A DNA stretch of 64,000 nt, taken from NCBI RefSeq assembly GCF_000299395.1, contig NC_018656.1:744001-808000 (forward strand), read 5' to 3'. The first letter of the stretch is position 1, and the number at the start of each line of letters is the position of its first letter. The notes beneath the pieces are model-generated. The model had not been told where the DNA came from. It saw only the letters and a program-made list of their open reading frames with translations, and searched no databases. A program made the position numbers and the translations under genes. Shown here one piece after another: positions 61,167 through 64,000 of this stretch. The DNA is from Candidatus Nitrosopumilus sediminis (GTDB lineage: Archaea; Thermoproteota; Nitrososphaeria; Nitrososphaerales; Nitrosopumilaceae).

Positions 61167-62840
61167 ATGGAAATATCCAGCAAGAATGTTGTAGATGGAA
61201 CATCACGTTCTCCACAAAGAGCAATGTACAAAGCTATGGGGCTAGATGACGATGATCTTAGTAAACCATTCATCGGAGTTTGTCATACAGGTAATGAAGC
61301 AACTCCTTGTAACATTTTATTGCCAAAATTAGCAGAAGAGGCAAAAAGAGGAGTGTCAGAAAACGGGGCAACCCCAAGGATGTTTTCAACAATAGCAGTA
61401 AGTGATGGAATTGCAATGGGTCATGAAGGGATGAAATCTTCTCTAATTTCTCGTGAAGTTATTGCAGATTCTATTGAATTAATGGTAAGAGCCCATCAGT
61501 ATGATGGAATTGTAGGAATTGCAGGTTGTGACAAAAGCTTACCTGGCACAATGATGGCAATGGCCAGATTGAATTTACCTTCAGTTTTCGTATATGGTGG
61601 AACAATCATGCCAGGAATTCTTGACGGTAAAGAGCTAACAGTAGTTGATGTCTATGAAGCAGTTGGAGCATATGATTCAGGACAGATATCTTTAGAGATG
61701 TTAAAAAATATTGAAAACACAGCATGCCCAAATTCTGGTTCATGTGGAGGAATGTTTACTGCAAACACAATGGCATCAATTTCAGAAGCTATTGGTTTAG
61801 CATTGCCAGGAAGTGCAAGTCCTCCAGCTGAAGACGAACGTAGAAACAAGATGGTGTATGATACAGGTGCAGCATGTGCAAAATTATTAGAATTAAACAT
61901 TAAACCAAGAGACATTATGACGTATGAAGCATTTGAGAATTCAATTGTGATGTTAAATGCAGTGGGAGGATCAACTAATGGAATCTTACATTTATTATCA
62001 ATGGCAAATGAAGCAGGAGTAAAATTAACTTATGATGATTTTGAGAGGATAAGAAAAAAGACACCTCACATTGCAGATATGAAACCAGGCGGAAGCTATG
62101 TCATGAACAGTCTAGACAAAATTGGCGGAATCCCATTTGTTCTAAAAAAGCTAGCTGCTAAAGGATTGCTAAATGGAGATTGTATTACAGTTACAGGTAA
62201 AACCATACAACAAAATCTTGATGCCATGACAATTCCAGAACCAGAACAATCAATCATCAGACCAATTGAGAATCCATTGCACTCAGTAGGAACAGCAGTT
62301 GTTCTCAAAGGAACTCTTGCACCAGAAGGTGCAGTGATTAAAACAGCAGGTGTTGAAATGACAAAATTTACTGGTAAAGCCAAAGTGTATGACAGGGAAG
62401 AATTTGCATTTGATGCAGTTGCTAAAGGAGATGTGGAAGAAGGTGAAGTCGTAGTTATTAGATATGAAGGTCCAAAAGGAGGACCAGGTATGAGAGAAAT
62501 GCTTGCAACTACGGCAGCACTTGTAGGTCAAGGGTTGGGCAAAAAAGTAGCAATGGTAACTGATGGAAGATTCTCAGGAGGTACTAGAGGATTCATGGTA
62601 GGACATGTTGCACCTGAAGCATATGTTGGAGGCCCAATTGCACTAGTCAAAGATGGAGATGAGATTACCATCGATACTGAAACTACAATAATTGATCTTC
62701 ATGTTTCAGAAGAAGAATTAGCAAAAAGAAAACAAGAATGGCGAAAACCTGAACCAAATTACACCTCAGGAGCTCTTGCAAAATATGCAACACTGGTAGG
62801 ATCTGCAGCACAAGGTGCAATTACTACTGCAAATCCATAG
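61167..62840 (+). CDS. ilvD: Dihydroxy-acid dehydratase
   Basis: The 557-residue Fe-S enzyme catalyses the third step of isoleucine/valine synthesis. The cluster cysteines are in [25 protein letters not shown] and [16 protein letters not shown]. Length and C-terminal [21 protein letters not shown] are typical. Its last 75 bp overlap the convergent membrane-protein frame 62766-63038. Confidence 0.95.
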
Positions 62841-63038
62841 ATGAACAATTCCAATAGAGATTAAGACACCACTAAATAATACAACAATAATAGGTTCTGC
62901 ACCCTCCAAAACTGACGTTCCCATTGATGCAGATGAGATAACACCTAAAAATACACCAAACAAAATTGCCAATATTCCAGATATGATTTCTAGAACGGCA
63001 AGAACTGTTACTCCTACTGGCCTTACTTGTGCAGACAT
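62766..63038 (-). CDS. Small membrane protein, C-terminus overlaps ilvD
   Basis: ATG 63038 ([16 protein letters not shown]) is preferred to 63083. Two hydrophobic spans ([26 protein letters not shown] and [21 protein letters not shown]) are followed by a Cys-rich tail ([17 protein letters not shown]) that is encoded opposite the end of ilvD. The tail may be an artefact of the antisense frame: the gene may be truncated or degenerate at its 3' end. Family not recognised. Confidence 0.5.
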
Positions 63039-63107
63039 TAAATTAAATTCAAATCTGTTATCTAAAAATGAATTGTTTTTCATAGTTTTATAATTTATCT
63101 TAGAATC

Positions 63108-64000
63108 TCAAACAAAATAAAGTACAAAAAATATTACAACTGCAACAACAGGTGTAACTATCATCATCTTTCTATCTGTTGCCAACTGTTCCTTTAATTC
63201 ATATTCTTTATGTTCAATACCTACAATGGTATTCATATGACGTTGATGCAACAACAAAGCCAAAAGAGCATTGCCAAAAACAGAATATATTGAAATCATA
63301 ATTTTATCTGCAAGTGTAAGATATCCTAATGGCGGAAGCTCACCTAGCAAAAATACTGCGTGGAAAAATATTGATGCAGTCATTCCAGTTCCAACAATTG
63401 TAATTCTATTTTGTAGAGTAGTTGAAGACATGAAAAGTGTTGCAAAGCCAAAACTAGCAAGCACTAGAGGAGGCAATAGTTTCTTTACAAATATTGAAAA
63501 CGGTTCTGTATCAATTGGAAAAGTTGCCTTGTAGTGTGGAAAGTCTGCCCAAGGGTATGAATCAATACGTGTTTCAAATGTTGGCACATCAATTTCCCAA
63601 CCAGGAACAGTAATGGTACTAAAATTTATACCACTGTTTTCTTCGTTTATTTCAAATACAATATCTTCTGCAGTAAGTGGGAAAAATGGTTCAATGTGTA
63701 CAGTTAACACCATGTTCTCAAAGGGATAATCTTTGTAGTCATTGTCTTCAAAAAATATTCCGTGAATTTGTGTTTTGTGAAAATGCTCAGTAGTGCTAGT
63801 ACCATAGGTGTTAATCACATACCCATTTGTAAAATCCCACTCTTTTGGGGGAGGGCATTCAAGGAAATTAATTTCATCAGATGTTAAAGAAAGCCAGAAA
63901 ATTAATTCATAAGAGCCAGTTGACTTTTTAATCTCTCCAATCGTTTCTAGCTTTAACCCCATCTCGTAAGTGAATGGTTTTTCTGGACAGCCATTAGATT
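63108..64000 (-). CDS. Probable pentameric ligand-gated ion channel (Cys-loop-type) homologue, N-terminus off window
   Basis: The frame is open past ATG 63962 to the window edge, so the true start lies outside. An extracellular beta-domain contains YPFENMVLTVHIEP, matching the PFDxQxxxL loop of prokaryotic pLGICs, and PGWEIDVPTF, matching the later TGWxI strand. Four membrane spans follow: FVKKLLPPLVLASFGFATLFM (M1, with conserved Pro), TIVGTGMTASIFFHAVFLLG (M2), LPPLGYLTLADKIMISIYSV (M3, with the typical LPP..YLT..D turn), and MMIVTPVVAVVIFFVLYF (M4). The visible part is about 297 residues. The assignment rests on motif order and topology and is not tested by alignment. Confidence 0.75.
   Translation of the reverse strand, partial: SNGCPEKPFTYEMGLKLETIGEIKKSTGSYELIFWLSLTSDEINFLECPPPKEWDFTNGYVINTYGTSTTEHFHKTQIHGIFFEDNDYKDYPFENMVLTVHIEPFFPLTAEDIVFEINEENSGINFSTITVPGWEIDVPTFETRIDSYPWADFPHYKATFPIDTEPFSIFVKKLLPPLVLASFGFATLFMSSTTLQNRITIVGTGMTASIFFHAVFLLGELPPLGYLTLADKIMISIYSVFGNALLALLLHQRHMNTIVGIEHKEYELKEQLATDRKMMIVTPVVAVVIFFVLYFV

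Follow-up and report, generated by a model that had tools for sequence, protein, structure and literature searches.

The 64,000-nucleotide stretch of the Candidatus Nitrosopumilus sediminis genome analysed here (NC_018656.1, positions 744,001 to 808,000; below, the window) breaks off inside a gene that is a genuine member of the pentameric ligand-gated ion channel (pLGIC) superfamily, as profile, fold and motifs agree. With a probability of roughly three in four, this gene encodes a pLGIC subunit, likely forming a homopentameric channel used for sensing, in which the interface between the domains has been rewired together with the rest of an archaeal sub-branch. The host genome (1,690,905 bases, one contig) contains this pLGIC gene in one copy, and a homopentamer is therefore the most likely assembly.

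The reading frame occupies window positions 63108-63998 on the minus strand and is open up to the window edge. The full gene has an ATG start, codes for 320 amino acids and lies at L002:7108-8070, corresponding to G000:C1:807108-808070 of the host genome; the genome search placed it at G000:C1:807111-808070. Its start codon at G000:C1:808070 is 70 bases past the window edge. Thus the listed frame end at 64000 is the window edge only, and 24 codons of the gene are outside the window. The full-length frame is intact and begins with the N-terminal signal peptide MMRYLLIVLILLSGVYLNSESFAQ, which ends in SESFAQ. The part inside the window is the mature protein, residues 25-320 plus the stop codon. 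All features below are on the minus strand, and residues are numbered in the full-length protein unless stated otherwise.

Compared as a single sequence with solved structures (phmmer), the protein matched sTeLIC with E 1.1e-6 and ELIC with E 0.0014. An archaeal family profile built from six homologues aligned to GLIC over the full length in the PDB (E about 2e-25, 280 positions, residues 13-314). With a profile built only from the Arg-less branch described below, sTeLIC was matched with E 5.6e-16. Another genome of the genus encodes a homologue with 47% identity (E 4e-91). The AlphaFold2 model of the monomer (32 homologues; pLDDT 92.8, pTM 0.83) contains ten strands and four helices, and its best Foldseek matches were GLIC and GABA-A receptors (E 5.7e-20, TM 0.79, probability 1.00). 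The strands make up a beta-sandwich extracellular domain (63504-63998). The helices are M1 with its kink proline (63432-63503), the pore helix M2 (63339-63425), M3 (63213-63314) and M4 (63114-63197). The four membrane spans and the extracellular beta-sandwich expected in a preliminary description of this DNA are thus both present in the model, with Foldseek in agreement.

The Pfam scan returned 0 families for the protein even at E 10, as would be expected if some other four-helix membrane protein shared a few pLGIC motifs by chance. This possibility is refuted by the full-length profile, the predicted fold and the Foldseek matches, which leave it a negligible probability. Some homologues score 22.9-23.6 bits against a Pfam gathering cut-off of 28.1 (Neur_chan_LBD / Neur_chan_memb), and the empty scan is ascribed to a limit of sensitivity. 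The PHROGs scan was also empty, and NCBIfam yielded LGIC_1 only, far under its cut-off. The profile match proposed earlier as a check was accordingly absent from Pfam and obtained with the family profile against GLIC.

All motifs named in the preliminary description were located: the beta6-beta7 Pro-loop YPFE (63717-63728) with VL downstream of it, PGWEI (from 63605 down), LLPPL with the proline of M1, and LPPLGYLTLADK (from 63338 down). They hold the superfamily's beta9 Trp in PGW (63597-63605; GLIC W160 in the profile alignment), the M1 Pro and the M2-M3 Pro in LPPLGY; the M2 0' Arg is present as well. The Pro-loop conforms to [F/Y]PxD in its Tyr and Pro, with Glu118 for Asp. Glu occupies this position in 3% of pLGICs, and no residue other than the loop Pro is fully conserved across the superfamily (PMC4795631 Table 1). 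The Arg that precedes M1 is replaced by Thr188 (63507-63509), aligned to GLIC R192 by an ungapped column to the M1 proline. This Arg is conserved in 94% of the superfamily (PMC4795631 Table 1), that is, typical and not universal, so its absence is no bar to membership. Position 9' of M2, where Leu (75%) or Phe (13%) is typical without being defining, is Thr (63378-63380).

The earlier term Cys-loop-type channel holds at the level of the superfamily. A Cys-loop receptor in the strict, metazoan sense was rejected: no Cys is found around YPFE, and the mature protein has only two Cys, at positions 28 and 72. Since the Cys-loop cysteines are absent, the exact name is Pro-loop receptor, or prokaryotic pLGIC. 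Cys28 (63987-63989) and Cys72 of the CPPP motif (63855-63857) belong to a pair spaced by 44-45 residues, which the protein has in common only with its nearest relatives (L045, L046 and L047); the rest of the branch has no matched pair. The two probably form a disulfide bond on the extracellular side that has nothing to do with the Cys-loop.

Among known channels, the proton-gated GLIC of Gloeobacter (PDB 3eam/4hfi) resembles the protein in profile and fold at 18% identity and shares with it the prolines of M1 and M2-M3 and the Trp of beta9. GLIC possesses an Asp-Arg-Asp triad at the domain interface, Glu at -2' and Ile at 9', whereas the corresponding residues here are Lys/Thr/Glu, Gln-Asn-Arg at -2' to 0' and Thr at 9'. 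sTeLIC (PDB 6fl9), the best single-sequence match, likewise shows LP.LGY.TL.D after M2, but its M2-M3 stretch is one residue shorter. ELIC (PDB 2vl0) also lacks an acid at the beta1-beta2 position (Thr28) but, unlike the archaeal protein, keeps the pre-M1 Arg (Arg199) and Leu at 9'.

The pre-M1 Arg is absent from 15 of the 52 archaeal pLGIC proteins in the family alignment. Thirteen of the 15, including the one studied here, form one branch spanning several genera (support 100/96; SH-aLRT 97 after the trait columns had been taken out). In this branch the Pro-loop Asp is replaced by Glu, His or Asn, and 12 of 13 members have an additional residue in the M2-M3 stretch. In the present protein the added residue stands just before the loop LPPLGYLT (63315-63338); the Pro, Thr and Asp of the stretch are invariant. 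The tip of the beta1-beta2 turn bears Lys or Arg in all 15 Arg-less proteins against 5 of the 37 that contain the Arg; here it is Lys48-Lys49 (63924-63929), where most of the family has Asp-Leu or Asp-Thr. The association of Arg loss with a basic turn gives a Fisher p of 3e-9, a value that ignores shared descent. The tree needs only about three losses of the Arg, which makes a tree-aware test powerless, and the association is therefore to be read as a pattern only. The Pro-loops of three branch members (L048, L049 and L050) are HPFH or HPFN, so that the usual Asp-Arg salt bridge has neither of its sides there. Most of the Arg-less branch also shares HF[HY]K near loop E (HFHK, residues 72-75 of the mature frame, in the present protein) and a PWG or PWA tip of loop C; these are possible candidates for residues of the binding pocket. 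As far as the open-licence literature searched goes, the Arg-less branch represents a variant not described before.

In front of M2, cation channels usually have Glu-[Arg/Lys] and anion channels Ala-[Arg/Lys] (PMC549065). Glu or Asp was found at -1' in 12 of 13 proteins of the Arg-less branch versus 2 of 37 Arg-containing proteins. By these residues most of the branch has a cation-type pore entrance, a feature that most paralogues outside it lack. The protein studied here is the exception of its branch: residues -2' to 0' are Gln-Asn-Arg (63405-63413), with Asn at -1' and no acidic ring. It is also the only one of the 52 with Thr at 9', a position that is bulky and hydrophobic in all but two; 13' is Phe. 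From the residues at -1' and 9', the pore is expected to be weakly selective and its hydrophobic gate to have moved towards Phe13'. The same two residues could be a sign of relaxed function. At 15' of M2 (63360-63362) a His is conserved in 46 of the 52 proteins, in both archaeal subfamilies, and is a possible pH- or metal-sensitive site.

Within the host's family, 23 of 250 genomes gave a pLGIC match; in samples drawn from the order and from the phylum, the counts were 34 of 400 and 37 of 398 genomes. The loci with a taxon name include Nitrosopumilus, Nitrosocaldus, 'Nitrosomaritimum' and Bathyarchaeota bins. Most carriers have a single pLGIC gene; the genomes G101 and G061 have more than one. 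A search for close relatives on viral contigs returned no pLGICs and thus gives no sign of carriage by phages. The count for the family makes the earlier statement that such channels are rare in archaea a fair one. The novelty claimed for an ammonia oxidiser does not stand, as Thaumarchaeota, including Nitrososphaera viennensis, already appear as a new pLGIC taxon in Jaiteh et al. 2016 (PMC4795631). pLGICs were therefore known in the phylum of the host, and this gene is not the first there. The earliest archaeal pLGICs were those of Methanosarcina, in 2004 (PMC549065). The same paper gives ten thaumarchaeal sequences, possibly including the present one, as a robust clade of the same archaeal group with the same domain plan and a Cys-less Pro-loop. 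The text consulted does not mention an Arg-less sub-branch, a longer M2-M3 stretch or a split at -1'. No functional work on archaeal pLGICs was found in the open-licence literature.

In the mechanism proposed here, the subunit would unite an extracellular sensor domain with four membrane helices, and five subunits would make up the channel. A small solute or protons would act on the beta-sandwich. The Pro-loop and the beta1-beta2 turn would then be pushed against the M2-M3 loop, opening the M2-lined pore to passive ion flow, and the likely use is the sensing of outside conditions. In GLIC and ELIC, activation depends importantly on contact between beta1-beta2, the pre-M1 Arg and the Pro-loop Asp (PMC4778918; PMC5760087). 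This triad, usually an acid on beta1-beta2, Arg before M1 and an acid in the Pro-loop, appears to be rewired in the sub-branch. Without the Arg, Lys or Arg of the beta1-beta2 turn could pair directly with the Pro-loop Glu in a putative salt bridge.

Alternatively, the protein might retain the pLGIC fold but no longer work as a gated channel, either decaying or serving as a subunit with a binding or structural role. Relaxed constraint would then account for the loss of the pre-M1 Arg, of the acid in the turn, of the acid at -1' and of the Leu at 9'. Several gating positions that are nearly universal have indeed changed together, and with Ala in place of the pre-M1 Arg, ELIC is no longer activated and GLIC is not expressed (PMC4778918). 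The patchy spread over 23 of 250 genomes is in line with this as well. Such a loss of channel function is nevertheless judged unlikely, given that the frame is intact with its signal peptide and all structural motifs, and that the M2-M3 stretch keeps its invariant Pro, Thr and Asp. Furthermore, the Arg-less state is held over 13 sequences in several genera, which argues against decay. A gated channel with a rewired interface remains the preferred reading.

The upstream neighbour of the gene (L002:8078-16006, minus strand), beyond the right edge of the window and separated by 7 bp, encodes a secreted protein of 2642 amino acids that has Bact_surface_Ig-like and HYR domains and also matches a lectin family weakly. 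The two genes may be co-transcribed. A functional link to this neighbour as a trait of the family was rejected on two grounds: it is absent beside every other pLGIC locus examined, and its N-terminal 800 residues gave no hit when searched against the 94 other genomes of the genus. At the loci examined, no neighbour gene recurred across the pLGIC subgroups, and gene context gave no support for a role. At window positions 62766-63083 (minus strand) there is a small, possibly truncated membrane-protein frame; its final residues overlap, in antisense, the end of the dihydroxy-acid dehydratase gene.

In one genome (G145), two pLGIC genes, one from each archaeal subfamily, stand in tandem with a gap of 48 bp (L069:6776-8710), and the pair begins 20 bp after another secreted-type reading frame. 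With an Arg-less and a canonical gene in tandem, mixed channels are allowed there, and the pair is a candidate heteromeric receptor. It might be supposed on this basis, and from the genomes with more than one pLGIC gene, that the present protein works in heteromers only, or that its branch evolved as a partner of the canonical Arg-containing subunit. The single gene in the host, as in most carriers, makes this very improbable, and the homopentamer is retained for the protein studied here.

A broader and tentative proposal, which is rather doubtful at present, is that the Nitrosopumilaceae have two pLGIC subfamilies, split like the excitatory and inhibitory receptors of animals. One would be Arg-less and cation-type (Glu/Asp-Arg/Lys at -1'/0'), gating by the beta1-beta2 Lys/Arg and the Pro-loop acid; the other would be canonical, without the -1' acid. 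The two occur in tandem in one genome and could mix, and the present protein would be a further modified form with a polar 9' gate.

Should the gene turn out to be an ordinary pLGIC, it extends the known distribution modestly. A natural Arg-less branch would test how much of the gating chain from beta1-beta2 through the pre-M1 position to the Pro-loop is required. Within the superfamily, archaeal members have received the least study, and such a channel in an abundant marine ammonia oxidiser would represent a new way for the organism to sense its surroundings.
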